DNA of 23,194 nucleotides, from IMG/VR virus record IMGVR_UViG_3300031626_000019, positions 1 to 23,194 of that record. The stretch is one strand, 5' to 3'. Source of the stretch: a virus. The notes under the pieces were generated by a model that was given only the letters and a program-made list of their open reading frames with translations, had not been told where the DNA came from and searched no databases. This document shows positions 4,809-21,156 of this stretch, piece by piece (position 1 is the stretch's first letter; every line of letters starts with the position of its first letter). Position numbers and translations under genes: made by a program.

Positions 4809-5557
4809 GCGAAACACTTATGGAAGGTGGCACAGAATCCCCAGTTGAAAGTGACGTAACGTCACGGGACTATGTTATCGAAAGTGACGTAACGTCACAA
4901 ACGGATAGACCGGAGTGGTTACCTGAGAAATACAGCACGGGCGAAGACTTGGCTAAGGCGTATAAAGAACTTGAGTCTAAGCTTGGCAACAAAGAAGATG
5001 ACATCAAGTCTAAGCTTATGGAAGAGATACAGACGGAAGCGTTCAGCAGCCGTCCAGAAAGCGCTGGTGATTACGAGTTGCCAGAGATCATTGACGCAGA
5101 AGCATCTGTAGATAATGAGCTTTTGAAGTGGTGGTCCGATCACGCCTATGAAAATGGCTTCTCTCAAGAAGAATTCCAGCAGGGGATTGAGATGTATGCT
5201 GCGTCTGTACCCGGCAATGAAGGCCCCGATCTTGAGGCAGAGGCTCAAAAGCTAGGTGAGAATGCGGATACTCGTATTCAAGCAGCTTCTATGTTTGCCA
5301 CTAAGTTCTTTCCGCCTAACGCATTGCCAGCAATTGAGCGCATGTGTGAAAGCCACGAAGGTATTTTAGCCCTAGAGTCTATACAAGAGGCGCTAAAAGG
5401 TGGATCATTCTCTGGAAATACTCAGCCCACCGCAGGTTTGACTGAGGCTAAACTCAGGGAGATGATGAGTGATCCAAGATACCACAACCCAAGGGACCGT
5501 GACCCAAACTTCGTTCGGGAAGTCGAAGCTGGTTTCAAGCAGGTCTACAGAAGTTAA
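4805..5557 (+). CDS. Capsid scaffold protein, T7 gp9-like
   Basis: This 250-residue, strongly acidic protein should guide capsid shell assembly and then leave the prohead. The segment RPEWLPEKYSTGEDLAKAYKELESKLG (about residues 36-62) is the conserved element of podovirus scaffolds: a WLP-x-K[FY] turn, then EDLAKAYKELE. A Pro/Asn-rich C-terminus ends in a basic, probably helical stretch (NFVREVEAGFKQVY), the usual capsid-binding end. An AGGAG site at 4791-4795 precedes the ATG. Residues 16-31 contain ESDVTS twice, encoded by a 19-base exact repeat that holds a palindrome (see separate entries). The next gene's reading frame begins inside the 3' end of this one. Confidence 0.9.
   Translation: MSETLMEGGTESPVESDVTSRDYVIESDVTSQTDRPEWLPEKYSTGEDLAKAYKELESKLGNKEDDIKSKLMEEIQTEAFSSRPESAGDYELPEIIDAEASVDNELLKWWSDHAYENGFSQEEFQQGIEMYAASVPGNEGPDLEAEAQKLGENADTRIQAASMFATKFFPPNALPAIERMCESHEGILALESIQEALKGGSFSGNTQPTAGLTEAKLREMMSDPRYHNPRDRDPNFVREVEAGFKQVYRS
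4847..4898 (+). repeat. Two exact 19-base repeats, each with a 15-bp palindrome
   Basis: The sequence GAAAGTGACGTAACGTCAC occurs at 4847-4865 and again at 4880-4898, 33 bases apart. Inside each copy GTGACGT and ACGTCAC form a perfect 7-bp inverted repeat around one A (4851-4865 and 4884-4898). Together they encode ESDVTS twice in the scaffold N-terminus. The 33-base offset is 11 codons and about three DNA turns, so both copies would face the same side of the helix. The arrangement looks like a dimeric operator or other protein-binding site, but a simple in-frame duplication explains it too. Confidence 0.8.
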
Positions 5558-6065
5558 GATTATTCAGCGGGGTGATTACTATCTCACCCCGTTTACCCTC
5601 GGTCACATAGACGAGGTGGCGGAGAATTTAAGCTCGGAAAATAAAAGAGAGCTAATTTTAATGGGCCACACTGACATAAGGCAGTCTTTATACGAGATGC
5701 ACGAATGCTCAGAATCCTATATAGCAAGACGAAATGAAGAAACCTTTTTAATGGTTGGTGGCCTTTGGTACGATGATGCTAAAGATGCTCAGATGTTTGC
5801 TATGTTTTCCAGTGGGTTGAAGCAAAACTTTCACGCACTGGCACGTGGCTCTAAGCTTTTAGTAAACTTTTTTGATCAAACAGAAGAGATGATGACTATG
5901 ACAATCTTGGCTGAATATGAGCCAATTTTAAACTGGGCATCTTGGCTTGGCTTCGAGGCTGTCGGCGTAAGTCGGCGCGATTCAAACGAGTATGTTGAAT
6001 TTGTGCGTTGCAATCCAAACGAAAAACTTGTTTACAATAACTCACTACGGCCCGTAAAGCACTGA
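5469..6065 (+). CDS. GNAT-like protein resembling T7 gp13 (start uncertain)
   Basis: From the GTG at 5469 this is 198 residues, but the first 28 overlap the scaffold gene and look like a by-product of its other frame. The recognisable fold begins around 5553 (VKIIQRGDYYLTPFTLGHIDEVA). GTG at 5469 has AGGGAG upstream; GTG 5499, CTG 5529 or ATT near 5559 are alternatives. The middle has the strand pair SYIARRNEETFLMVGGLWYDD and the end has LNWASWLGFEAVGV, the layout of an N-acetyltransferase-like fold (W-x-x-x-LGFE). T7 gp13 is a small GNAT-like protein needed for virion maturation, and this may be its counterpart. It sits before the capsid gene rather than with the ejection proteins as in T7. 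Enzyme activity is doubtful: I do not see a clear acetyl-CoA binding Q/RxxGxG/A motif. Confidence 0.7.
   Translation: MIQDTTTQGTVTQTSFGKSKLVSSRSTEVKIIQRGDYYLTPFTLGHIDEVAENLSSENKRELILMGHTDIRQSLYEMHECSESYIARRNEETFLMVGGLWYDDAKDAQMFAMFSSGLKQNFHALARGSKLLVNFFDQTEEMMTMTILAEYEPILNWASWLGFEAVGVSRRDSNEYVEFVRCNPNEKLVYNNSLRPVKH
5998..6010 (+). promoter_or_regulatory. Candidate late promoter or regulatory word, copy 2
   Basis: AATTTGTGCGTTG is identical over 13 bases to the word at 2695-2707. Here it lies inside the 3' end of the GNAT-like gene, 145 bases (from its TTT) before the capsid gene ATG. It encodes part of EFVRCN, so chance from codon use cannot be ruled out. Position before the most highly expressed virion gene makes a promoter role plausible. 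Confidence 0.3.
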
Positions 6066-7270: not shown

Positions 7271-7855
7271 ATGCCAGATGTAGCAAACACACCCGTCAAG
7301 ATTTGTTCTCGCGCTTCATTGCTTATCGGCGGTGAGGCGATTCAATCATTTGACGATGGCACTGCGGAAGCAACAATTTGTGACGCAATGTATGAAGACA
7401 TGGCAAGATCAGCTTTGACCAACTCTCGTTGGCGCTTTGCTACCGATCAGGCTGTGTTAAACCAATTGTCCGAAGCCCCTACTGGGCGTTGGAAACTTGC
7501 TCACCAACTACCCTCTGAATCAATTATGCTAATGGCAGTCACTATGAATGACTTTAACATTAAGTATGACACCTATGGTTCCAAAGTATTTAGCGACTCA
7601 AGCACTTCTGATGTTTTAATTGCTGACTATGTGTTCCGTGCTAATGAAGTTGATTGGCCTCCATACTTTGTCACTGCTGTTCAATACATGATGGCTGGTG
7701 TGCTTGCCATATCTGCTGCGCGTGACTCTCAACTCGCCTCGCTCATGGAGCAGAAGGCTAACTATCAAATGACTCAGGCTCGTCGTCTGCACTCTCAAAC
7801 ACAGACAACACGCAAACTTGACACATCAAGGTTTATTGCTGAAAGGCGAAGTTAA
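7271..7855 (+). CDS. Tail tubular protein A (T7 gp11-like adaptor)
   Basis: This 194-residue protein would form the dodecameric adaptor between the portal and the nozzle. The conserved opening is present (PVKICSRASLLIGGEAIQSFDDGTAEATIC), followed by MYEDMARSALTNSRWRFAT near residues 37-56 and LPSESIMLMAV near 79-89. The C-terminal half is helical, ending in SQLASLMEQKANYQMTQARRLHSQTQTT, as in other members. The length matches T7 gp11 (196 residues). There is no ordinary Shine-Dalgarno site within 10 bases of the ATG because the terminator-like hairpin ends 9 bases upstream. Its stop overlaps the start of tubular protein B (TAATG). Confidence 0.9.
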   Translation: MPDVANTPVKICSRASLLIGGEAIQSFDDGTAEATICDAMYEDMARSALTNSRWRFATDQAVLNQLSEAPTGRWKLAHQLPSESIMLMAVTMNDFNIKYDTYGSKVFSDSSTSDVLIADYVFRANEVDWPPYFVTAVQYMMAGVLAISAARDSQLASLMEQKANYQMTQARRLHSQTQTTRKLDTSRFIAERRS

Positions 7856-10416
7856 TGCAGAAAGTTAGAGTACCAATAAACAGCTTTCAGTTTGGCGAAG
7901 TCAGCGATTCCCTTATTAGCCGTAACGACACACCAATTCTCAACTCCTCTGCACAGCGGGTTGAGAATTTTCTTGTAATGTCTGAGGGTTCTTTAAAGAA
8001 GCGTCATGGCTTAAAGCATATTTATGACTACAGCCTGACGTATGACGCAAGTAATCCCAATAAATCTTTCCTTGCATCCTTTTTGTTTGACGATAATGAG
8101 CAGTACATCCTTTCGATTGAGCATCAAAAACTCAGGGCATTTCGTTTATTAGACGATGGGTCTGTTTCTCTTGTGGATACCGTAACGGCAGATGTGAACT
8201 CAGCCGCACTTCCGTTCGATCAAGATTATGTGACTCAATATACAGTTGCTCAATACGGTGACGTAATGTTTGTCTGTCACCCATTGTTTGCGCCGCGCTT
8301 AGTGAGCCGTACTAGCCTTACAAACTTTGATATTAGCACATTTTCTTTCGACTCAAGGCCCGACAACCACAAGATTTATCAACCTTACTATGACTTCCAA
8401 GCTCAAGGTGTATTGCTTGACCCTAGGGCAACAACTGGAGATTCAATTCTTGTAAAGGCATACACAAGCACTGGGACTACCGATGCAAGCAGTGTTGCTG
8501 TATCTCAAACTGTAAGCGCTAGTGGCAGCTTTACGCTCCTTAATAGCAGTCCTATTGTTTTTGATAAACCAAGACAAATTACTTTTACCTCGACTAGCAC
8601 GAACACAAGTAAGTACATTCAAATTGCTGGAAAAGACATTGACGGCGTTACTATTAGTGTCAGTGTCACTGCTCCCAGCAACGCAACAGTCGATACAATA
8701 AGGTTTTTTAAAGAGATAACTTATATTGCGACAAGCACTGGCGCAGCTGATGTTTCCGTTGGGTTCAACTCTAAAGAAGGAGTTTCCTATTTCAACACAG
8801 ACGGTAGCCAGACTGGCGGCAACTATCTAAGCTCAGCCCATGTCGGAACAGTATTACGTTATCACGAGTCTGAAATGACTATTACTGAGGTTCAGTCTTC
8901 TTGCGAAGCTATAGTTGATATTGTTGACGAACTTAAAATTAGACTAGCTGTTCTTAACCCTCTGAGAACAATTGAAGGTTCTGCATCGGTAGAGGTTACA
9001 CATCTTAGCCACGGCTTTTCTGGCGGTGAAGCGATTACTGTTGAAGAAGCTGCTGCAACTGGTGGTATTAACACTGGAAACCTTAATGGCTCTAGGACTG
9101 TCGGCAATATTATTAATGAAAACACATACACCTTTACGGCTGGCGGCTCTGCTAGTTCATCAGAAGATGGTGGCGGTTACGTTAAAATTGTAACTCATGC
9201 TGCTACAGCAGACTGGTATGAACAAGCTTTCTCAGCTGTTCGAGGATACCCTGCTTCCGTTTGTTTCCACGAAAATAGGCTTGTTTTTGGAGGGACCATT
9301 GCTCAGCCGGATACAATTTGGATGAGCAAGATTGGTCAGTTTTTTAACTTCGATGTGGGCGAGGCTGAAGACTCAGACTCAATTGATTTAACAGCAGCCA
9401 CAGGTCAGGTTAATGAAATTAGATACATGGTTTCCAACAGAGACCTTCAGGTGTTCACAGCATCTGGTGAGCTTTACATTCCCACTTACTTGAATCAAGC
9501 CATCACGCCGACTAACGCACAGATCAGAAAGCAGACACCTTATGGTACTGAGTTTGTGCTTCCCGCGTCCATAGACGGCGCTACAGTCTTTGTTCAGCAT
9601 GACGGGCATACAGTGAGGGAATATCTCTATACCGACTCTGAGGACGCCTACACGGCTTCCTCTATATCAACACTGTCTGGACACTTAATACAGTCGCCTC
9701 AGTCTATGGCAGTTGTGCATTCTGGATTTGACCTGTCTGACTCATATGCTTTTATTGTACTTGGCGACGGTGAGGGCACTCTATTCTCCTCAAACCGCGC
9801 AGAGAAAAGAGCCTCTTGGACTAGGGTAACAACATCTGGTAGGTTTGCTGGAACGATTGCAATACATAACAGGCTGTTTGTTAATGTTTACGATAAAAGC
9901 AATAAGCTTCATTTGTGTGAGTTTACTGGTGATGTTGGATTAGACTTGTATCTTTACGAAGCTGTCTCAACAAATGTTGTAGACGTAAGCGGTCTGTATA
10001 ATAACAATGACGTTGTTGACGTTATCGGAGTCAAGGCTGGCAAGCAGTCTTATCTTGGTCAGCTTACCGTAAACTCAAGCGAAGAGATTAATCTGAGCGC
10101 CTACAGCGAACATGGGTTCACTCATGCTTATGTTGGGAAAGCATTTACAGCTAAGATCGTAACTAATCCAATTGACGTTACGGCATCTAATGGTCCGGTT
10201 ACTGGTACTATTCGCGGGATTAGTAATGTTGTTTTAGATTTGAAGGCAACTCGCTCAGTTAAAGTAAATAATAGAAACTTCTCAATGGATGACGACTTTT
10301 CTGGGAAAAAAGAAATTAGGATTTTGGGCCATAGCCGCGATCCTCAGATTACCATTGAGCAAAATGATCCACTTCAACTTCAGCTTAACGGCTTAATAGC
10401 GGAGCTTGTACTCTAA
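7855..10416 (+). CDS. Tail tubular protein B (T7 gp12-like nozzle)
   Basis: This 853-residue protein would form the hexameric tail nozzle through which DNA and ejection proteins leave. The N-terminus carries the family hallmark: SFQFGEVSDSLISRNDTPILNSSAQRVENFLVMSEGSLKKRHG (about residues 10-52). A central region holds Ser/Thr-rich strand segments. The block YPASVCFHENRLVFGGTIAQPDTIWMSKIGQFFNF (about residues 465-500), followed by a propeller-like stretch, is also typical. The length is close to T7 gp12 (794), with the extra residues in the Thr/Ser-rich domain around 190-330. It is linked to its neighbours by TAATG overlaps at both ends. Confidence 0.88.
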   Translation: MQKVRVPINSFQFGEVSDSLISRNDTPILNSSAQRVENFLVMSEGSLKKRHGLKHIYDYSLTYDASNPNKSFLASFLFDDNEQYILSIEHQKLRAFRLLDDGSVSLVDTVTADVNSAALPFDQDYVTQYTVAQYGDVMFVCHPLFAPRLVSRTSLTNFDISTFSFDSRPDNHKIYQPYYDFQAQGVLLDPRATTGDSILVKAYTSTGTTDASSVAVSQTVSASGSFTLLNSSPIVFDKPRQITFTSTSTNTSKYIQIAGKDIDGVTISVSVTAPSNATVDTIRFFKEITYIATSTGAADVSVGFNSKEGVSYFNTDGSQTGGNYLSSAHVGTVLRYHESEMTITEVQSSCEAIVDIVDELKIRLAVLNPLRTIEGSASVEVTHLSHGFSGGEAITVEEAAATGGINTGNLNGSRTVGNIINENTYTFTAGGSASSSEDGGGYVKIVTHAATADWYEQAFSAVRGYPASVCFHENRLVFGGTIAQPDTIWMSKIGQFFNFDVGEAEDSDSIDLTAATGQVNEIRYMVSNRDLQVFTASGELYIPTYLNQAITPTNAQIRKQTPYGTEFVLPASIDGATVFVQHDGHTVREYLYTDSEDAYTASSISTLSGHLIQSPQSMAVVHSGFDLSDSYAFIVLGDGEGTLFSSNRAEKRASWTRVTTSGRFAGTIAIHNRLFVNVYDKSNKLHLCEFTGDVGLDLYLYEAVSTNVVDVSGLYNNNDVVDVIGVKAGKQSYLGQLTVNSSEEINLSAYSEHGFTHAYVGKAFTAKIVTNPIDVTASNGPVTGTIRGISNVVLDLKATRSVKVNNRNFSMDDDFSGKKEIRILGHSRDPQITIEQNDPLQLQLNGLIAELVL

Positions 10417-10865
10417 TGGCACTCGAGACACTAATATTTGCTGCTATTGCTGCGGCTGGTCAAATTCAAGCAGGTAAAGCTGAGAAGCAAGAAGCTGACC
10501 TTAACGCTTTCAACATAGAAACTGACAAAAAGTTAAATAAAGTTGCGGCAGATCAAATGGCTCTTGAGCGGAAAAAGGAATTTGACTTTGCAATGTCTGC
10601 AAATATTGCACAACTTGCCGCTACTGGCAGGGACGTTGGTTCCAGCATGACAATTAAAGCATTCTTACAGTCGCAAAAAGAAACTGCATACACAGACATT
10701 AGTCGAATACAAACTCAAAACCATTGGGCTGGTCTTCAAAAAGATATGCAAAGACTTGCTGAAGGTCGTAGGGGGCGCAACGCAAAGACCGCATCTCTAT
10801 ACAGGGCAACTGCTACTTTAGCTAACGGTTGGGAAAGTTACTCAAGCGCTAAATCAACACCATAG
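10416..10865 (+). CDS. Internal virion protein B-like (T7 gp14-like ejection protein)
   Basis: This 149-residue protein starts with a hydrophobic Ala-rich helix (LETLIFAAIAAAGQIQAG), then a long charged helix (KAEKQEADLNAFNIETDKKLN) and a conserved-looking AANIAQLAATGRDVGSS-type segment near residues 60-80. In T7, gp14 is ejected first and sits in the outer membrane; the hydrophobic N-terminus and the position right after tubular protein B fit that role. The assignment rests on size, layout and order. It starts by TAATG overlap, and the next gene follows after 15 bases. Confidence 0.8.
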   Translation: MALETLIFAAIAAAGQIQAGKAEKQEADLNAFNIETDKKLNKVAADQMALERKKEFDFAMSANIAQLAATGRDVGSSMTIKAFLQSQKETAYTDISRIQTQNHWAGLQKDMQRLAEGRRGRNAKTASLYRATATLANGWESYSSAKSTP

Positions 10866-10880
10866 AAGGCATAACAAACA

Positions 10881-13800
10881 ATGGCTATAATTCGTCAACA
10901 AACACAAGTCTTCAATAAGCCAATTGGTGTTGTCCGTGCAGACGCAGGCGGTGCTAGGGTTGGCGAGGCGATTGCAAATGCAGCCGATACTATGGGGCAA
11001 ATTGCTTTTAAAAATGCTGCAAGGGTGGCTGAGAAGCGAGGTGTAGAACTTGCTAAAGGACTTGAGGATAGCAAGCTTACAACCTTTAACCCTGAGACTG
11101 GCAAGCCGGAAGCCTTTAAAGCGCCAATGGGTTTTGGAAAAATTGCGGCTGACGCTTACCAACGGGTGGTAGACGCAAGGTTTGAAGAGTCCGTTGATAC
11201 TGAGCTTAGGCTAAAGGCTCGAGAAATTGCGCTTAAATATGAGTATGATGCTGACGGATATGCTAATGTATTTAGCGATTACATAGCTGAAATGAGTGAG
11301 AATGCCGAAGGGCATTACAAGGTATTTATCCAAAGTAATGGCGCTAAGTATCTTGCGTCAACATCTCTCAACATTAAAGAAAAATCTATCCTTAGATCAA
11401 GGCAGCAACTTAGCGAAAGGCTGGCAAGCAAGCTAGGTAAAGATGTAGACAAAGCAAGGGAAGCTGCTGCGGCTGGTAACTTTATGCCCGTTCCAGACGG
11501 AGATTTAAGCGAAGCTGAAGTTATTGCTCAAAGATCAGTAGGCAACGCTTCAGATGGTGAAAAAAGTTTTCTGCTAAAGGGTGGCGCTTCAACATCCCAC
11601 AGCGATGAGGTCAACTTTGGAATAGCTAAGGGTGGCTTGGAATACATCATAAGCAATACTGCAAACCCAGCGGAGCGAGTGGCGCTTGACTTAGCGATTA
11701 GGACTGGCGGCAAGGAAGGAATGTCTCAATTGCCTGCTTCCATTCAAGAGCAGGTTAATGCGCTTTTACCTTACATTAGCGTTGGAACAAAAGATCAGAT
11801 TTTACAGTATAGCTCCGTTGTTGCTGGTGATTACAATGCTCAATGGAAAGTAGAAAAAGACATTGCCAAGGCTCAAGCCGAGCAGGCAGCAATAGAAAGC
11901 CAAATTAACTTCAACTCAAATGTTGATCTGCTTGGAGAATACGCTCAAGGAAAAAGCTTAGAACTCCTTACTATGCTAGAGTATGACGATTTTGGCAATG
12001 AAACAGGTGCTAGACGACAGCCTTCAGCCGTAGAGGTTGCTGGCAGCGTTCAATTTCTTTCTGAAAAGTTTGAGGTAATATCTAGTAATCTCACATCCCT
12101 CCGTAGAAGAGATCAAATTACTCAAGCTGATTATGAGAATGGCTTAAAGGAATCAAGAGAATCAATCCTTCAGAATCTTTTAATTCCAGCCGCAGCTTTA
12201 GGGAATGTTGAAAGCCTAAAGCTTGCGTTAACCATTCCAAACGCAAGGAGCAGTTGGGATGGGTTAACTCAAACTCAGGTTTATTTAGTTAACGAAGTTT
12301 TAGAGTCAGGTTTTTTTACAGGAAAAGACCACGACTTTGTTCAATCGACATTGAACGGAGTTAAGAATACCGCTGCTGAAAAAACTGAAGAGATGAAATT
12401 TAACTATAATTTAACAAAAGCTGTTAATATTGCAGGATCAATGGCTGCAAATAACAGCCTGTCTGAAGACGAATTTAATGATGTTACTCTAAGAGTAGAG
12501 GCTAACATTAAAGATGGAGGCTATACTGATGTTCAAGGAGCTTCACATCTTTCTTCCTTAAGGACGCAAAGAAGTATTGGTTTAGCAAGTGCGTTTGCTG
12601 GTAGTCGCGGCATGAACTCAAGAACATTAAACCAACTGCAAATGTATGTAGACTTAAAGGGAAACGTAGAAAATCCACAAGATTTCCCCAGTCAAGTTGC
12701 CAGCGTTGGAAACGAAATATTAAAAAGTCTTGAGACACGAACCGAGATAGATGCTGTTGTCGGAAAAATATCAGGGCTTAAATCCGTTCTTACTACAGCG
12801 GAAACTAAAGACAAGGAAGCTAAAGAAATTTCCGCTTTAAGAAATTCTATAAGCGGCGGCTCTGCTGATAAGTCTGACCTTAAAACTAGGGAGACTGTTG
12901 ATGGTATGCTTGCTCAAGATGGTCTTGATTTAAGCAGCTTTAATTCTCTTAGCAATGAAGACAAGCAAGTTGCTCTACATTACCTTAGGAATGGCGGTTC
13001 TGAAGTACTGTCAGCTGCATTAAATAATATGGCGGATGGTCAACAAGTAAGAGGTGCTGAGTCATTTATTGCTCTGTACGCACTGTTAAGCACTGATATG
13101 GTTCCCGGGCGCAATGAACCGACTAATCAACTTGAGCCTTATTTTAATGACGATGTAAGTAATGCTCTCCTTAAAGATGCATTCAATGTCTACAAAATAA
13201 GAGGCGGCAACGAGGGAATTGACACAATTATTAATGAGCTTGCTGCAAAAAGGGCTGATCCAAAAGCCATAGCAAACATGAACATAATCCTTGGAACTAA
13301 AGGCGGGACGTCAAACAAACGACAAGTAACTCCGCTTAGCTTTGCGGCTGAGATAACAGGTAACGACCCAAGTATTTACCCTGAGCTTGCATCCGTTGTT
13401 GAATACTTCGCCCTTACGGGCCTTAACAAAAATCAAATAGAAACGCGTGTTAAAGCAATTATAGATCAAAAGTATCCCAAGTCTCTTAATATCATCGACA
13501 CCTCTATGCCCATTGGTAGCGTAACAAGGTCAAGAAAAGCTGTCGTTAAACTTATTCCAGACGATGATATACGTCAGTCATTTTATGACAGGCACAATGA
13601 CAGGCTTGCAAAGTTGTCTAAACATATGGGCATGGAGCTTCGTATTAATGACGGCACTCAGGCCAGTATAGATGATGTTGGTCTTGTACGACCGATTATA
13701 GCAGCCGGAATATCTATGGCGGCATCAGCAATGGGGCTAACTGAAAGAGTAGAAGACGCAAATGTTTACTTGCGACCTGACCCAAGTGGAGCTTCTGACA

Positions 13801-14129
13801 GGTATTACTTCTACTACAAGGATGAAAACAATGAGCTTCAACCGCTGTCTTACCCCGCTGATTCCAAAGGTAATTACCTTAGTGAAAAGAGTGGCGGAAA
13901 ACCATATTGGTATTCAGAAACTCCTGACGAAACAATTGGCGACTTAGTTGCGGCTAAGCTCTCAGAAACTAAAGCCTCTCTCAAGCAGAGCGCAGACGCA
14001 AACGCAGTAGATCAAAATCTTAGAGTAAACTGGTTGACTCAATCAAGTCCATCGGCCTCTGCTGACTTTATGATGCAGCGTTTAATCGAAGGCTTTCCAG
14101 ATGCCGTTAGACCAAGTGGGAGCGAATAA
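10881..14129 (+). CDS. Internal virion protein C-like (T7 gp15-like ejection protein)
   Basis: This 1082-residue protein is mostly alpha-helical and soluble, without membrane segments or a signal peptide. The N-terminus (RQQTQVFNKPIGVVRADAGG, then Ala-rich helices) and the helical body resemble large core-forming ejection proteins. The length exceeds T7 gp15 (747). The C-terminal part (about residues 950-1010) is aromatic and charged (RYYFYYKDENN, KPYWYSETPDE). I see no lytic transglycosylase motif. In T7, gp15 and gp16 form a tube across the periplasm for DNA entry; a similar role is inferred from gene order. The stop overlaps the start of the next ejection protein (TAATG). Confidence 0.82.
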   Translation: MAIIRQQTQVFNKPIGVVRADAGGARVGEAIANAADTMGQIAFKNAARVAEKRGVELAKGLEDSKLTTFNPETGKPEAFKAPMGFGKIAADAYQRVVDARFEESVDTELRLKAREIALKYEYDADGYANVFSDYIAEMSENAEGHYKVFIQSNGAKYLASTSLNIKEKSILRSRQQLSERLASKLGKDVDKAREAAAAGNFMPVPDGDLSEAEVIAQRSVGNASDGEKSFLLKGGASTSHSDEVNFGIAKGGLEYIISNTANPAERVALDLAIRTGGKEGMSQLPASIQEQVNALLPYISVGTKDQILQYSSVVAGDYNAQWKVEKDIAKAQAEQAAIESQINFNSNVDLLGEYAQGKSLELLTMLEYDDFGNETGARRQPSAVEVAGSVQFLSEKFEVISSNLTSLRRRDQITQADYENGLKESRESILQNLLIPAAALGNVESLKLALTIPNARSSWDGLTQTQVYLVNEVLESGFFTGKDHDFVQSTLNGVKNTAAEKTEEMKFNYNLTKAVNIAGSMAANNSLSEDEFNDVTLRVEANIKDGGYTDVQGASHLSSLRTQRSIGLASAFAGSRGMNSRTLNQLQMYVDLKGNVENPQDFPSQVASVGNEILKSLETRTEIDAVVGKISGLKSVLTTAETKDKEAKEISALRNSISGGSADKSDLKTRETVDGMLAQDGLDLSSFNSLSNEDKQVALHYLRNGGSEVLSAALNNMADGQQVRGAESFIALYALLSTDMVPGRNEPTNQLEPYFNDDVSNALLKDAFNVYKIRGGNEGIDTIINELAAKRADPKAIANMNIILGTKGGTSNKRQVTPLSFAAEITGNDPSIYPELASVVEYFALTGLNKNQIETRVKAIIDQKYPKSLNIIDTSMPIGSVTRSRKAVVKLIPDDDIRQSFYDRHNDRLAKLSKHMGMELRINDGTQASIDDVGLVRPIIAAGISMAASAMGLTERVEDANVYLRPDPSGASDRYYFYYKDENNELQPLSYPADSKGNYLSEKSGGKPYWYSETPDETIGDLVAAKLSETKASLKQSADANAVDQNLRVNWLTQSSPSASADFMMQRLIEGFPDAVRPSGSE

Positions 14130-17100
14130 TGCAAAACGGATATAACGCACTTAGAGATGTTACTCCCGGCGCACCTGAAGAAATTTCACCAGACGTTTCC
14201 TTTATGGATACCGCCCAAGCAAGTCTTTCATATAAGTACGGACCGATTGCAGATGCTTGGAACCAAGCTAGAAAGTATCCGATTGCTCCTATTGATGGGT
14301 TTAGCGCAAGGGATAACATACCAGAAGAATACTTAGATTGGAGTTCTACTCTTGTTTCTGCGGTTAACCAAGAACATCTTGATCTAAAGATTTCCCAGAT
14401 TGACGATAGGATTGAGCTTCATAAAACCCTTCAAAACTCTGGAATAATTCCAACTTTTGCAGTGGAACTATTTGACCCAGTAAATTGGATGGGCGTTCCG
14501 TTTATGAAAGCTGGAAGTATTTCCAAGTCATTCCTACGCAGTGGAACGGGGGTAACCTCTATCGTAGGTATGCAGGAAGCTATTAGATATCCATTTGATC
14601 CGCTTGCGACTCCAGCGGAAGTTGGAATGAACCTCTCAATGTCCTTTGTAATGGGTGGGGTATTAGGCGGTGCTGTTTCTATTCCCCAGCAGAGAAGGCT
14701 TAAAGCAGCAGCAGACGCTAAGCCAGAACTTGAAGCGTGGTATCAAGCTATTCAAAAGAGAGATAGCTACACAGAGTTGCAAAGTAAGATTAAAGAACAA
14801 GAAATAACCTTAGGTTCGACTAAGGAGAAACTTGAAGAACTTAAAGCATCTAAATTAGGATCAGACTTAGACAATCCTGAAGGCAGATACCTTTTAAAAA
14901 AGATTGATATTGCAGAGCGAAGCTTAAAAGTATTCAACAGACAGCTAGAGTTAAGTCAGGGTGACGCAAGCATTGCGCCTAACATCTTTACAGACTCATG
15001 GATATTTAAATCAGTTACTACACCCATGAAGCGAGTGCTTCAAAACCCTAAGATTCCAGACTCGGTTAAAGTTAAGACGCTAATGATTGCTAATGATTCC
15101 GGCATTCTTCTTGCGATGAATAGAAACGGAAAGAAGATTGGCAGTTCAGTATGGCAAAACGCCAAACAGTTTGATGGCGAATGGGTTATGCTTCAAGACG
15201 ATCTTCAAGACTTGTGGGGCCAAAGTACAGGTAATGGCACGGTAAGCGCCTTGGATTACACCTACAATCGATCTGGTTTTGAGTCTTGGCTTGAGGGCAT
15301 CGACAAGAAAGCTATTCGTGGCGAGGCTCCTGCAAACGATATTGAAGCCCAAGTTATGAATAAAATAAACAACTTCTATGAGGTTTGGGAAACACGATTA
15401 ACTGATACTGGGGAGATAGGTTCTAAGCCAGCCCTTGAGCGCGTTATTGCTTTGCGTGAGGTTCGTATTGAAAAAGTTAAGAAAAACTTAGAAGCATCTA
15501 TAAGTGCCAACCACCGTGGAAAGTTAGAGGGCCAACTAAAACGCAACCTATCAGAAATACAGGAAGCCAAAGCAAGCTTAGATGCTATTGCTGAAGACTC
15601 TGCCTCTAAAGTGCTGCCTCCTAATGAGACTATATTTAGACCTCGCTACTATGATATTCCTGCTATCTTAAAAAACAGAGAACAGTTTGAACAAATTCTC
15701 GTTGATTGGTTTAAACAGAATCCAATCATTGTAAGGCAGGACGGCGCAAAGTTTCTTAGGAACCGCCTGCCTACAGACGAAGCTTCACTAAGAGCTAGAG
15801 CTAAAGATGCAACCGATCAAATTCTCGGCATAAAAGACATTACTGAGCCAGACATTGCTTTCTATGGCTTGGGTAAATCCAAGCACCTAAGGCACAGAAC
15901 GCTAGACATTCCTAACAAGTTAGTCTTGGACTTCATTCAGACTAATCCAAGAGCCGTCATGCAAGCGTACACTCAAAGGACAGCTAGACGTTATGAGTTC
16001 TCTAGGCAGTTTAACGGATTAAATATTAAAGATGTTTTAGACGATGTGTATGATGATATGAAGACTGCTGGTAGTTCATCAGAAGAAGCTTGGGCGGCAA
16101 TGAAAGAGATGCGCCACTTGCACGAAGCTGTTGTAGGCGGGATGTATAGAAACCCTGATTCCTGGAGCCACAGATATGCGAATACAATAAGAAAGCTTGC
16201 TCAATACAATTATCTTGGTCAGGCATACAAATCAACGATAACTGAGCCATCTAAAATTTTAATGGAGCATGGAATAGGCCCTACAATGAAGGGTTTGTTT
16301 GGCATTCTTCGTGATAACAAATTAAAAATGGGTGCTAAAGAAGCTCGTTTCGGTGGTGAAGCTGTCGATAACATTATGAATAACAATTCATTGCGGCAGA
16401 TAGACGAGCCAGTTAACAACCCATTTAGCGGAGACTTTCTCGATAAAGCTGCTCACCCTTTTTTCCTGCTAAACGGCCTTGGTCCGATCACTAAGATTAT
16501 GAAAGACTTAGACGCAATGCTGCGTTCTCACTCGCTAGTAGATTACTCTATCCGCTGGACACAGGGCAAAGCAAGCAAGATGGAGCAAGAGTATCTGCTT
16601 CGTTACAACATTGATTTAAAGATTGCCACTGAGATTGCCAATGCTCCTTGGGAGCGGTCTAGCGATGGCCTTTATATGGCAAACACAGAGGCTTGGACTA
16701 ACACCATTCAGTTCCCATCAACTACAGCTAAAGTCATTTCTGGTAATACTAATACCTATGTAGGGAAAAGATACAGCCCTGCTTTTTATAATGCTAAAAG
16801 CAACACAATAAGAATAGATGAAGAGTACATAAAAGACGTTATGTATGAATTGCGCGGCTGGGAAAACCCTAGAGTTGAAGGCGTTACTCCAATCAAGGAG
16901 GGTATCATTAACTCTCCCGATGATTATGTTGCCTTCATTAAGATGCACGAAGTTATGCACTCTTTAAATAGCGCTAAGTCTCTTGGGTTTGATAAAAGAA
17001 CGAAGAAGGGCCTTGCCGATTACGAGAATGCAATCAATGATCTTGCTGTAGCTGAGATAGAAAAACAGCCTAGAGTTAGCTCCGACACAGTTAGAGAGTT

Positions 17101-17818
17101 TAGAAGCGCACTTAGCTCTGGCGTTCTTAATACTATCCTAATGGGTACGCCTGCTGATCTTCCTGCAATTAGCAAAGGCGTTGTCTACATACCAATGCGT
17201 GTAGCTAGGCAGTTTGGCATGAAAGAAGACCCTAAATACACGGGCTATGCTAGAATAGAAAACGGATTACTTGGATTGCCGTTCCAATTCTATAGCTACT
17301 CCTTAGCTGCTATGAATAAGATTACTGCTGCTCACGCTCACGGACAGATGAAGAACCAATTCATAGGGATAGCTGCTTCTATGGGGCTAGGCTATATGGC
17401 GCTTCAACTGAAAACACCCGACTGGGTTGAGATGAGCTTTGAGGATCAATTCGCGCGATCTTTTGATTACTCAGGTCAAGCTGCTTTGCTGTCTGACATG
17501 ATGTATACAGCGATGTCTACAAGTCTTGCCCTTGGTGGCCCCAATCTAACTGGTGGATTGCTTGAGCCACGTTTCCCACAAGAGCCAAGTGCAGTTGATG
17601 CTGTTACTGGGCTTGCTGGTGCTGGTGCAAGCACAGTTGCAGATATAACAAGAGGAGTAGTTGACATCCTATCAGGAAACGTAGGCGAAGGCGCTGCTGA
17701 GATTGTTGACGACCTTCCGTTTACTGGGCTTTTCTTTATTGACGGTCTGACAAAGTCATTTCAAAGAATGCTAAGAGACATGGACGAAGACCAAAACGCT
17801 GGGTACAGAAGGTATTAA
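14129..17818 (+). CDS. Internal virion protein D-like (T7 gp16-like) with embedded HExxH metallopeptidase-like domain
   Basis: This 1229-residue ejection protein has hydrophobic, possibly membrane-inserting segments near residues 164-186 (SMSFVMGGVLGGAVS) and 1075-1094 (IGIAASMGLGYMALQL). Residues 210-265 are a likely coiled coil. The late block has NTILMGTPADLP, VYIPMRVARQF and ENGLLGLPFQFYSYSLAAMNKI, which I associate with gp16-like C-termini. Between W856 and V988 lies about 130 residues that look like a separate domain, with HEVMH at 940-944 and a possible third metal ligand, E966, in DYENAINDLAVAEIE. No N-terminal transglycosylase like that of T7 gp16 is visible. The protein probably forms the channel for genome entry; the peptidase role is inferred from motif only. 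Confidence 0.85.
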   Translation: MQNGYNALRDVTPGAPEEISPDVSFMDTAQASLSYKYGPIADAWNQARKYPIAPIDGFSARDNIPEEYLDWSSTLVSAVNQEHLDLKISQIDDRIELHKTLQNSGIIPTFAVELFDPVNWMGVPFMKAGSISKSFLRSGTGVTSIVGMQEAIRYPFDPLATPAEVGMNLSMSFVMGGVLGGAVSIPQQRRLKAAADAKPELEAWYQAIQKRDSYTELQSKIKEQEITLGSTKEKLEELKASKLGSDLDNPEGRYLLKKIDIAERSLKVFNRQLELSQGDASIAPNIFTDSWIFKSVTTPMKRVLQNPKIPDSVKVKTLMIANDSGILLAMNRNGKKIGSSVWQNAKQFDGEWVMLQDDLQDLWGQSTGNGTVSALDYTYNRSGFESWLEGIDKKAIRGEAPANDIEAQVMNKINNFYEVWETRLTDTGEIGSKPALERVIALREVRIEKVKKNLEASISANHRGKLEGQLKRNLSEIQEAKASLDAIAEDSASKVLPPNETIFRPRYYDIPAILKNREQFEQILVDWFKQNPIIVRQDGAKFLRNRLPTDEASLRARAKDATDQILGIKDITEPDIAFYGLGKSKHLRHRTLDIPNKLVLDFIQTNPRAVMQAYTQRTARRYEFSRQFNGLNIKDVLDDVYDDMKTAGSSSEEAWAAMKEMRHLHEAVVGGMYRNPDSWSHRYANTIRKLAQYNYLGQAYKSTITEPSKILMEHGIGPTMKGLFGILRDNKLKMGAKEARFGGEAVDNIMNNNSLRQIDEPVNNPFSGDFLDKAAHPFFLLNGLGPITKIMKDLDAMLRSHSLVDYSIRWTQGKASKMEQEYLLRYNIDLKIATEIANAPWERSSDGLYMANTEAWTNTIQFPSTTAKVISGNTNTYVGKRYSPAFYNAKSNTIRIDEEYIKDVMYELRGWENPRVEGVTPIKEGIINSPDDYVAFIKMHEVMHSLNSAKSLGFDKRTKKGLADYENAINDLAVAEIEKQPRVSSDTVREFRSALSSGVLNTILMGTPADLPAISKGVVYIPMRVARQFGMKEDPKYTGYARIENGLLGLPFQFYSYSLAAMNKITAAHAHGQMKNQFIGIAASMGLGYMALQLKTPDWVEMSFEDQFARSFDYSGQAALLSDMMYTAMSTSLALGGPNLTGGLLEPRFPQEPSAVDAVTGLAGAGASTVADITRGVVDILSGNVGEGAAEIVDDLPFTGLFFIDGLTKSFQRMLRDMDEDQNAGYRRY
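16700..17090 (+). other. Zinc-metallopeptidase-like domain inside the gp16-like protein
   Basis: The region encodes residues about 857-988 of the ejection protein. It contains a strand-type segment with NTIRIDEEYIKDV, then the helix FIKMHEVMHSLNSA with an HExxH zinc motif (H940, E941, H944). After 21 residues a second helix, DYENAINDLAVAEIE, could supply the third ligand (E966), a layout like gluzincins or ImmA/IrrE-type peptidases. It interrupts sequence that I expect to be continuous in relatives (ANTEAW joined to FRSALSSGVLNT). Boundaries are approximate. Confidence 0.65.
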
Positions 17819-17892
17819 CTTGTCCTAGTTGGTTTGTGCGTTGATAACAATTTACTCTCTGTGTGATAACAGGGAAAAGAGGATGGATAAAC
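17819..17892 (+). promoter_or_regulatory. Leader before the tail fibre, with candidate late promoter word (copy 3)
   Basis: This 74-base gap carries TTTGTGCGTTG at 17833-17843, the third copy of the word seen at 2697 and 6000. Its first T is exactly 60 bases before the fibre ATG, matching the 2697-to-2757 spacing. TGATAACA occurs twice (17843-17850 and 17864-17871 within a base). The ribosome site is AGAGGA (17877-17882). I see no good sigma70 -10 box and no terminator hairpin. Confidence 0.4.
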
Positions 17893-20800
17893 ATGACAAT
17901 TGATATCTCAGACAATGCAGCACGGGTCAGTTACACGGTAAGTGCTGGCGCAACGGTAACTTCCTTCTCAGTTTCCTTTGAGTTCTTTGAGGACGGCGAT
18001 CTGAGCGTCTATGTTGACGGAACTCTGAAGACTATCACCACGCACTACACCCTGAGTGGTGGCTCAGGCTCCACAGGAACCGTTACCATGAGCGTAACGG
18101 GTGCTTCAGGTGGTTCTAGTGTCGTAATTGTTAGAGACACTACAATAGAGCGTACATCAGACTTTTCCTCTGGCACTGATATCAACCGGGCAGCGTTAAA
18201 CACGCAGCTAGACACCCTCACGGCTATTGCTGCTGACAATAAAGACCGCGCTGATAGGTCAATCACTGCTCCGGTATCTGAAGTTACCCCTGTTTTGGTT
18301 CTTCCATCTGTTGATAACCGCAAAGGTACTGTTCTTGGTTTCAATGCAACGTCAGGTAACGTGGAAGCTGGGCCGTCCATCACTGCTGTCCAGAGTTTGT
18401 CTGAAGTAACGGCATCTATTAACCTTCTTGGCACTGCCGCTGTTGTTGAAGACATGGGCATCCTTGCTACAACCGCAATTGTAGAAGACATGGGGCTGCT
18501 TGGTACATCTGGCAATGTAGCCGCAATGGCAAAGCTAGGGGTTGATGCTGTTATTGCCGACATGGCAATACTTGGTACTAGCGCTATTGTAGAAGACATG
18601 GCGATCTTGGGTACAGACGATGTTGTAGCTGACATGGCTATACTAGCTACCAGTGACATCGTTACTGATATGAATCTCTTAGCAACTGCTGCTGTCGTAG
18701 AAGATATGGACCTACTTGCAACGTCTGTTGTAATTGAAGACATGGGCTTGCTAGCAACTGCGGCTGTTATTGAAGACATGGGCCTGCTGGCAACTAGCGC
18801 AGTAATTACTGACATGGACTTGCTTGCTACTTCTGGAAATTTATCTGCGATGGCCTTACTTGGAACATCAGATGTAATTACAGATATGGCTTTGCTTGGA
18901 ACTTCTGCTGTAGTAGCTGATTTAGCTATATTAGGTACTACTGATGCAGTAGCCGACATGAACACTTTGGCTACAACTGACATTGTTTCTGATCTAAATA
19001 CTCTTGCTGCTATATCTTCAGATATTACTGCCGCTGCGGATGTTGCATCTTCTATTGCTGCGTCTGGAACAAATGCAACTAATGCTGCCAACTCAGCGAC
19101 AGCTTCTGCAAGCTCTGCAAGTGCAAGCGCTGGATCAGCAACGGCTGCTGCGAACTCGGCTTCGGCTGCGGCAGCAGCGTTTGATTCTTTTGATGACAGA
19201 TATCTAGGGAGCAAATCGTCTGCTCCTACCGTAGACAATGACGGCAATGCGCTTGTTGAAGGCGCTTTGTATTTTGATAGCAGTTCGAATGGTATGAAAG
19301 TTTATGATGGAAGCAACTGGATTGCTGCTTCCTCCGCTGGCACAGCGTCTCTTATCTTGTACGAATACACAGCGACTAATAACCAGACTACATTCTCTGG
19401 TTCTGACGATAACAGTGCTACCTTAGGCTACACTGTTGGCAACATACAGGTAGTTCTGAACGGTGTTATCCTTGATCCTTCTGATTACACTGCGTCTAGC
19501 GGAACAAGCGTGGTTTTAGGGGCAGGCGCAACAACAAACGACTTGTTGAACGTGTATGCGTTTAAGTCTTTTACTGTGTCTGACACGGTGTCTGCATCTG
19601 CTGGTGGTACGTTTGCTGCTAATGTAGCTTTCGGCGCCAATGCTACCTTCGGTGATAACGACAAGGCCATCTTCGGCGCTGGGTCTGACCTACAGATTTA
19701 CCATGATGGGTCAGATAGTTTCATTGATGATGCTGGCACTGGCTCTTTGTATATGCGAAGCAACAGTGTCGTTTTAGGGAAATACACTGGTGAAGTTGGT
19801 TTAGTTGCAACGGCTGATGGTTCAGTTGATTTATATTATAACGATGTTAAAAAACTCGCAACAAGCGCCAGCGGAATTGACCTAACAGGCACTTTAACCG
19901 TCCGCAACGGTAGCTCTTCTACCGAACAGATTATATTAGGTAACACCTCAAACACTGGTGGAAGAGACTGGAGACTAGGCCGAGATAATGCTGCGACAGG
20001 AGATTTTATCATTAAGTCCTCCGATGCGACTAATAACAATGTGCTAACAGAACGTATGCGCATCGACTCGTCAGGCAATGTTGGTATTGGTTCTGCTCCT
20101 TCTTATAATCTGCACATTGAAAAAGCTGGAAACCAGTTTATATTTTTGAATAACGCATCAACAAATGATGGTTTTTACTTTAAGGCTGGTACTGGTGCAT
20201 CCTCTATTCAAACGAATGGTGGTAGCAATGTGATGAACTTTTTCACAAGTGGCAGTGAACGTATGCGTATCGACTCGTCAGGCTCCGTGGGAATTGGGTG
20301 TACCCCAGCCTCTACTGTTTCGCTAGATGTTCAGAACTTGTCTGCGAGTTCTAACAATGTTTTATTGCGTATAAAAAACACAACTAATGGAGAAGATAGT
20401 GGCCTTATTATTGAAGGTCAAAACGGGGGTGCTAGGGAATATAAAATTGGTGTAAATGTTATCGCAAATAGTCCCGATCTTACATTTAGTGGCCCTACGG
20501 GTTACAAGTTTTATACTGCTGGCTCAGAACGTATGTCCATTGACTCGTCAGGCACTGTTGGTGTTAATGGTGGAAGATTTAATGTAATCCGAAATCAAAA
20601 CTCTGACTTTGTAGCTAAGTTTGAAAATGACGCTGGCGGTGGCTACGGCATTTCAAGTGATAACTCCGCTGGAAACCATATATTCTTCTATAGAAGTGGC
20701 TCTGGCGTAGGAACGATTACAGACAATGGTACAACCATTGCTTTCAACACAGTATCAGACTACCGCCTAAAAACTGATGTCCAGCCAATGACAGGCGCAT

Positions 20801-21156
20801 CCGATCGTGTTCAAGCACTTAACCCAGTTAACTTTGAATGGATATCAGCGGGTACTCGTGTCGATGGCTTCCTTGCACATGAAGCACAGGCTGTAGTTCC
20901 TGAGTGTGTCACAGGCACCAAAGACGCCATGCGTGACGAAGAGTATGAAGTCACACCTGCGGTTGAGGCTACCTATGATGACGATGGCAACGAACTAACA
21001 GCCGCAGTTGAAGCAGTCATGGGTACTCGCAGTGTCCCAGATATGCAGGGAATCGACCAATCCAAAATCGTACCTTTGCTGACGGCAGCCTTGCGCGAAG
21101 CACTCACTAAGATTGACGATATGGAAACAAGATTAGCCGCATTGGAGGCAGTGTAA
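17893..21156 (+). CDS. Tail fibre with 12-residue repeats and self-cleaving S74 chaperone
   Basis: The 1087-residue receptor-binding fibre starts at the ATG at 17893, which has AGAGGA upstream; an in-frame GTG at 17863 would add ten unlikely residues. Residues 1-110 match the T7-type fibre attachment domain (VSYTVSAGATVTSFSVSFEFF, then TSDFSSGTDINRAALN). Residues 181-372 are sixteen 12-residue repeats (consensus TSAVVEDMGLLA). An Ala/Ser shaft follows, then DDRYLGSKSSAP and IYHDGSDSFIDD modules and three ERM-x-IDSSG modules. Residues 955-1087 are an S74 intramolecular chaperone opening SDYRLK, with the expected Ser955/Lys960 pair, so the last 133 residues are probably cut off after trimerisation. 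The stop overlaps the next start (TAATG). Confidence 0.92.
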   Translation: MTIDISDNAARVSYTVSAGATVTSFSVSFEFFEDGDLSVYVDGTLKTITTHYTLSGGSGSTGTVTMSVTGASGGSSVVIVRDTTIERTSDFSSGTDINRAALNTQLDTLTAIAADNKDRADRSITAPVSEVTPVLVLPSVDNRKGTVLGFNATSGNVEAGPSITAVQSLSEVTASINLLGTAAVVEDMGILATTAIVEDMGLLGTSGNVAAMAKLGVDAVIADMAILGTSAIVEDMAILGTDDVVADMAILATSDIVTDMNLLATAAVVEDMDLLATSVVIEDMGLLATAAVIEDMGLLATSAVITDMDLLATSGNLSAMALLGTSDVITDMALLGTSAVVADLAILGTTDAVADMNTLATTDIVSDLNTLAAISSDITAAADVASSIAASGTNATNAANSATASASSASASAGSATAAANSASAAAAAFDSFDDRYLGSKSSAPTVDNDGNALVEGALYFDSSSNGMKVYDGSNWIAASSAGTASLILYEYTATNNQTTFSGSDDNSATLGYTVGNIQVVLNGVILDPSDYTASSGTSVVLGAGATTNDLLNVYAFKSFTVSDTVSASAGGTFAANVAFGANATFGDNDKAIFGAGSDLQIYHDGSDSFIDDAGTGSLYMRSNSVVLGKYTGEVGLVATADGSVDLYYNDVKKLATSASGIDLTGTLTVRNGSSSTEQIILGNTSNTGGRDWRLGRDNAATGDFIIKSSDATNNNVLTERMRIDSSGNVGIGSAPSYNLHIEKAGNQFIFLNNASTNDGFYFKAGTGASSIQTNGGSNVMNFFTSGSERMRIDSSGSVGIGCTPASTVSLDVQNLSASSNNVLLRIKNTTNGEDSGLIIEGQNGGAREYKIGVNVIANSPDLTFSGPTGYKFYTAGSERMSIDSSGTVGVNGGRFNVIRNQNSDFVAKFENDAGGGYGISSDNSAGNHIFFYRSGSGVGTITDNGTTIAFNTVSDYRLKTDVQPMTGASDRVQALNPVNFEWISAGTRVDGFLAHEAQAVVPECVTGTKDAMRDEEYEVTPAVEATYDDDGNELTAAVEAVMGTRSVPDMQGIDQSKIVPLLTAALREALTKIDDMETRLAALEAV
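18433..19008 (+). repeat. Sixteen tandem 36-base (12-residue) repeats in the fibre gene
   Basis: Each unit encodes a version of T-S-A-V-V-E-D-M-G-L-L-[AG]; the GACATG core recurs at 36-base steps (for example 18595 and 18631). Third codon positions differ widely between units, so this is an old or fast-diverging array and not a recent expansion. Units 4 and 13 share a variant form (TSGN[VL]xAM), nine units apart. It probably builds a regular trimeric shaft. Confidence 0.9.
20050..20564 (+). repeat. Three dispersed ERM-x-IDSSG-x-VG modules in the fibre gene
   Basis: Copies begin at 20050, 20257 and 20527 and encode ERMRIDSSGNVGIG, ERMRIDSSGSVGIG and ERMSIDSSGTVGVN. The 12 bases GACTCGTCAGGC are identical in all three (20065, 20272, 20542), with in-frame spacings of 207 and 270 bases. 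Such modules separate the exchangeable tip domains of many marine phage fibres. Confidence 0.8.

Follow-up and report, generated by a model that had tools for sequence, protein, structure and literature searches.

The window, by which we mean the whole 23,194-nucleotide stretch of viral DNA analysed here (IMG/VR record IMGVR_UViG_3300031626_000019), carries its structural genes in T7-like order. Genes for terminase, portal (PF12236), T7-type scaffold (PF05396), coat (assigned by position) and tail tubular proteins lie upstream of the gene for a large gp16-like protein, which is followed by a tail fibre gene. The features that concern the present analysis are as follows.

7855..10416, + strand: tail tubular protein (gp12-like); phrog_376, E 1.3e-88
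10416..10865, + strand: gp14-like internal virion protein; phrog_418, E 1.5e-6
10881..14129, + strand: 1082-aa ORF in the gp15 position, upstream neighbour of the gp16-like gene; ORF and synteny, assigned by position only
14129..17818, + strand: gp16-like internal virion (ejection) protein, 1229 aa, carrying the inserted domain; phrog_342 and colinearity with T7 gp16
16697..17092, + strand: inserted zincin-like domain, residues 857-988, 132 aa; site empty in nine homologues, independent fold
16859..16882, + strand: WxxPxxxG motif, residues 911-918; constant or almost so among live copies
16946..16960, + strand: HEVMH, residues 940-944; H940 and H944 predicted Zn ligands, E941 predicted general base
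17021..17038, + strand: YENAIN, residues 965-970; E966 predicted third Zn ligand, N970 conserved
17863..21156, + strand: tail fibre with LED-like repeats and Peptidase_S74 chaperone; PF20854, PF13884 and phrog tail fibre matches

The 1082-aa ORF in the gp15 position had no match in Pfam or PHROGs. Between the scaffold and coat genes, a 198-aa ORF (5469-6065) may be GNAT-like or gp13-like, and Pfam gave no match for it. The tail fibre contains degenerate 'LLATxxVIEDM' repeats (LED_rpt, PF20854, sub-cut-off), with the S74 chaperone at its C terminus.

The 1229-aa protein was matched over residues 14-735 by phrog_342, 'internal virion protein with endolysin domain' (E 4.6e-31), and over residues 443-858 by phrog_16310, whose match stops at the insert. 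Its relatives share 25-58% identity with it. A profile of 14 relatives found T7 gp16 (E 1.6e-10, one-sequence search) in three colinear segments, T7 residues 296-465, 795-930 and 1100-1143, the latter two being weak taken singly (E 0.001-0.005); hhalign with T7 gp16 gave 95% for the 296-465 segment. A Foldseek search with a model of residues 640-1229 (pLDDT 75, moderate confidence) did not recover T7 gp16 and gave no meaningful match. The phrog_342 match, the colinear segments and the hhalign result make the term 'gp16-like' sound by sequence, and on that footing the ORF is a colinear homologue of T7 gp16, both its backbone and its gene order running parallel to those of T7 gp16 and phrog_342.

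The window protein is without the N-terminal transglycosylase of T7 gp16 and has the 132-aa zincin-like insert, whereas T7 gp16 has neither HExxH nor insert. Pfam detected no lytic transglycosylase (SLT) in the 1229-aa protein, and the phrog_342 match begins at profile position 214; other gp16 homologues are known to have lost the transglycosylase as well (PMC8954989). No peptidoglycan hydrolase, whether transglycosylase, lysozyme or other, was found in the three ejection-type genes (10416-17818). A coiled-coil-like stretch at residues about 185-260 (14683-14910) is largely missing in the close relatives L001 and L002; their protein is 57 aa shorter than that of the window.

The insert and its conservation

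The first-pass annotation had described a HExxH metallopeptidase-like segment interrupting a continuous gp16-type backbone. Its motif positions were reproduced: ANTEAW from residue 851, HEVMH at 940, DYENAIND at 964 (E966 being the Glu of YEN) and FRSALSS at 991. The interruption itself was borne out by nine homologues whose flanks align straight across an empty site, the surrounding backbone being intact: Vibrio phage 416E50-1 (L005), Hodr (L004), L154, L140, L172, L160, L221, L180 and L237. In full-length alignment, the ...W... end of these proteins runs directly into ...A...N.I.TP..., with 130-150 residues missing. By group, the empty site is a feature of Vibrio phages and of the Pelagibacter-phage Hodr group. 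The domain is thus, as far as alignment can tell, an insertion at this C-terminal site (the C-site), or else was lost in the empty-site lineages. All close relatives of the window protein carry the C-site insert, and in the comparison with L001 the insert is more conserved than its carrier (about 76% versus 58% identity).

HExxH occurs once in the 1229-aa protein and once among all six-frame ORFs of at least 60 aa in the window. Since 1.0% of 20,000 residue shuffles of the protein also contained a HExxH, the motif alone is weak evidence, and it was its conservation across relatives that led us to take it as real. The family was assembled from scans of IMG/VR viral contigs and protein searches of phage records, which yielded 195 domain-bearing proteins and 106 non-redundant pieces; about 100 domains remain once the second halves of five split domains and a single truncated copy are subtracted. 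HExxH is kept in about 86 of these, a share that is no census because most searches were seeded with the domain. Across the 84 non-redundant rows that cover the motif (one split-domain fragment left out), H940 and H944 are kept in 72 and E941 in all 84, and E966 is present in every row with a filled column except one. The signature [YF]ENxxN is near-invariant family-wide. Among live copies, W911 and G918 are invariant, on a par with the ligands, and P914 is nearly so. The absence of HExxH conservation, which the annotation had named as the result that would speak against it, did not arise: the motif is kept in almost all C-site relatives, the sole exception being L236, in which the histidines were lost independently (REITR).

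Eight members (L015, L033, L080, L088, L109, L188, L192 and L216) have nested insertions between HExxH and YEN. In L080 (ORF 3289, residues about 1021-1213) some 190 aa are nested there ('YFVHFTRKQNVESLLKNGYDL...'), resembling another globular, perhaps enzymatic domain, with no match in Pfam.

For the domain, Pfam gave nothing above cut-off, PHROGs no significant match and PDB sequences none; sub-cut-off Pfam matches to KN17_SH3 and DUF4660 were taken as chance. DUF4344, a 'putative metallopeptidase', matched one family member only (E 0.088). No cellular relatives of the domain were found in 84,980 prokaryote species genomes, and among the other phage records searched Hodr alone carried it. 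The motif set WxxPxxxGV - HExxH - YENxIN defines a family that is missing from Pfam and unmatched significantly in PHROGs.

Predicted fold and its nearest relatives

AlphaFold2, supplied with 48 sequences (alignment A5), returned a domain model with pLDDT 86.9 and pTM 0.80. In domain numbering, it consists of strands 18-21, 35-38 and 43-46 and helices 48-58, 80-96 (containing HExxH) and 109-128 (containing E966); in protein numbering, HEVMH lies in a predicted helix at 930-946 and E966 in one at 959-978. The annotation had looked to a predicted structure to bring its three ligands together and to resemble metallopeptidase folds. The first part was not contradicted, H940/H944 and E966 lying on two consecutive predicted helices. 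As to the second, zincins made up nearly all of the top-ranked PDB folds (jannalysin/selecase, anthrax lethal factor, PprI, deuterolysin and 3lmc), and none reached significance (lowest E 0.17, highest probability 0.51). In BFVD, four viral proteins matched with probability 1.0, their E values lying at about 0.001 or lower. We place good confidence in the predicted fold. Taken together, alignment, conservation and predicted fold support the earlier description of a HExxH+Glu zincin-like domain inserted in a T7 gp16-type ejection protein.

M78 (ImmA-IrrE-PprI) minizincins, in which HExxH is presumably followed by a Glu with an Asn four residues on (ExxAN), as here, offer a lead only. The window domain differs from them in having no Pfam match, and its fold matches to PprI 8sln (E 0.95) and to an IrrE-like phage protein are weak.

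The nearest known kind is the zincin-like MPTase domain found in the polyvalent proteins of phages and plasmids, such as N4 vRNAP C1 and P1 DdrB (Iyer et al. 2017, PMC5512222). Its core comprises a three-stranded sheet, an extra helix, the HExxH helix and the Glu helix, with inserts that vary between the last two (PMC5512222). Both groups have a short zincin core in which a HExxH helix precedes a Glu helix with variable inserts between them, and both occupy varying positions in giant injected or virion phage proteins. The sheet of polyvalent MPTases is flanked by an N-terminal helix; three strands are likewise predicted here, but helix 48-58 comes after the strands in sequence. The window domain is also unlike polyvalent MPTases in lying inside a T7 gp16-type backbone, in its WxxPxxxGV and YENxIN motifs and in having a histidine-less clade. 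When compared by hhalign with nine N4-type C1 domains, the HExxH stretch alone aligned (probability 2.7%), and a profile link to the N4 vRNAP zincin was rejected because the alignment was limited to HExxH. Anthrax lethal factor, among the top folds above, is the profile match of the N4 zincin according to Iyer et al. (PMC5512222). Kinship with polyvalent MPTases is thus indicated by the anatomy of the model and not by sequence, membership by sequence having been compared with the N4 clade and Pfam alone. The clade of the window may already be part of the published polyvalent-protein data set.

Copies at other sites and copies without zinc histidines

Beyond the first reading, the domain recurs at other backbone sites and in unrelated giant phage proteins, and the family includes a histidine-less clade. 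On a backbone HMM from which the domain had been removed, copies sit at 241-283, 306-406, 482-497, ~640 and 803-886, regions that are approximate because the positions are linear estimates; the window copy lies at coordinate 860. A further 18 copies occur in proteins of 756-3225 aa without detectable gp16 backbone. In a tree of 77 domains, copies at other sites and in other proteins cluster together (support 96/90), with two C-site copies nested inside. The spread over about five backbone regions and 18 giant proteins indicates that the domain is mobile, and it would appear to be an injected protease module moved around by phages. One 2718-aa phage protein (L292, ORF 4021) combines a DprA-like domain with the same zincin domain, an architecture of polyvalent type. 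A 1333-aa protein (L114/L159) was considered as a domain-bearing T7-type RNA polymerase and rejected, since it had no Pfam or PHROG match and no match to N4 vRNAP, and the real RNA polymerase lies elsewhere on the contig.

The gp16-like protein of Pelagibacter phage EXVC031P Hodr (WDQ27578.1, annotated hypothetical) has the same backbone and a domain of the same family (28% identity, E 5e-8). It differs from the window protein in that its C-site is empty, its domain lies near the N terminus at about residues 256-371, and KEVYR replaces HExxH. In a backbone-seeded scan (with L259 truncated and L273 belonging to the live group), all Hodr-type proteins long enough carried the domain nearer the N terminus. 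Their motif has Lys where live copies have the first histidine (KKE, mostly KExxR/K), and YENRLN is mostly kept. These domains form one clade of 11 rows (support 100/99), in which both glutamates are retained and the two histidines have become basic. W911 is replaced by His in 10 of the 12 copies lacking histidines. In Hodr-type proteins the zincin-fold domain is at about the place of the window's coiled-coil-like stretch (residues ~185-260).

Live copies occupy the same N-terminal site in L299, L314, L332, L335, L344 and L351, which suggests that the Hodr-type domain decayed in place. Judged from its residues, the Hodr-type domain is a pseudo-zincin, and in histidine-less copies salt bridges may replace the metal. 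Since the Hodr-type clade and L236 keep the domain without its histidines, a non-catalytic role exists at least there, and catalysis is not indispensable everywhere. In one gp16-like protein (L180, ORF 2850, residues 620-820) a degenerate copy (KEIYR) and a live one (HEQMH) stand side by side; L324 may be similar, with degenerate and live copies adjoining.

Possible function at genome entry

In T7, gp16 lies at the top of the internal core, is ejected and spans the inner membrane, and a model places gp16-C (residues 411-1118) in the cytoplasm of the host (PMC8954989). On T7 gp16 the insert falls between residues ~930 and ~1100, so that a passenger at this place would reach the cytoplasmic side if the window protein behaves like T7 gp16. 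We propose that a mobile HExxH...E zincin-like domain was inserted towards the C terminus of a T7 gp16-type ejection protein. In this domain H940, H944 and E966 would hold zinc and E941 would activate water. As infection begins, the domain, until then a passenger in the internal core, would leave the capsid with the gp16-like protein and arrive at the inner membrane or in the cytoplasm of the host. Its substrate would most likely be a host protein, or else the carrier or another ejectosome protein. We consider it somewhat probable that the domain is such a mobile zincin-like peptidase, which binds zinc, is catalytic, is carried in the virion and ejected together with the gp16-like protein, and cuts a protein after ejection. 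For polyvalent-protein MPTases, both the cutting of host proteins and the processing of the ejectosome have been proposed (PMC5512222). We favour a peptidase acting after ejection, with a host target slightly ahead of self-processing.

Under self-processing, the targets would be the zincin's carrier or adjacent ejection proteins, cut while the core matures or following ejection, so that domains fit, unfold or are released. Among published ideas on such domains this one leads; it has been put forward for P1 DdrB and other polyvalent proteins, and DdrB, whose MPTase is C-terminal, is processed before packaging (PMC5512222). The freedom with which the domain is sited in its carrier and in other giant proteins would fit a processing tool. 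However, N4 vRNAP, ArdC and TraC1 travel unprocessed despite their MPTase, N4 vRNAP being packaged whole (PMC5512222), and in the Hodr group a protein of this type manages without the histidines. We regard self-processing as a serious but rather unlikely explanation.

It is less likely still that the zincin fold is kept chiefly as a structural or binding module, serving assembly, membrane or partner binding with zinc and catalysis secondary. Such a role would account for the retention of the domain by the monophyletic Hodr-type clade (KExxR/K) and by L236 (RExxR), where the glutamates stay and the histidines turn basic, as if salt bridges stood in for metal. It sits poorly with the full HExxH+E, which about 86 of some 100 domains have at the various backbone sites and in unrelated proteins alike, and with W911 and G918, which are invariant like the ligands in live copies, W911 being absent too from 10 of the 12 dead ones.

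We think it highly improbable that the domain is a non-peptidase HExxH enzyme (e.g. an alpha-ketoglutarate/HExxH-type hydroxylase, a family cited for the same motif in the N4 paper, PMC12633501), its fold neighbours being peptidases, or a peptidoglycan peptidase replacing the missing transglycosylase, a reading prompted by the failure of Pfam to find a lytic transglycosylase or lysozyme in the phage's ejection proteins or in scanned relatives' upstream neighbours. The stand-in idea was not supported, since Pfam found a lytic domain in no scanned neighbour, with or without zincin, and L237 may have both: it carries the zincin and a weak, sub-threshold N-terminal lysozyme-like match, so that the zincin need not replace a hydrolase. 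The neighbour in L005 is annotated 'putative lytic transglycosylase', with no Pfam match.

Returning to the peptidase acting after ejection, we tentatively suggest, as a possibility short of an expectation, a mobile family of injected zinc proteases that travel as passengers of marine-phage ejection proteins and disable a host protein at genome entry, and that in the Pelagibacter-phage lineage decayed to a zinc-free, salt-bridged pseudo-protease. Which molecules other than DNA a phage injects has long been asked, and within the T7-type ejectosome gp16-C is understood least. The present analysis extends the zincins put forward for polyvalent proteins to the T7-type ejection proteins of abundant marine phages. 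With a domain of 130 residues that occurs naturally live, dead or not at all at known sites, the role of an injected protease and its target become directly testable.
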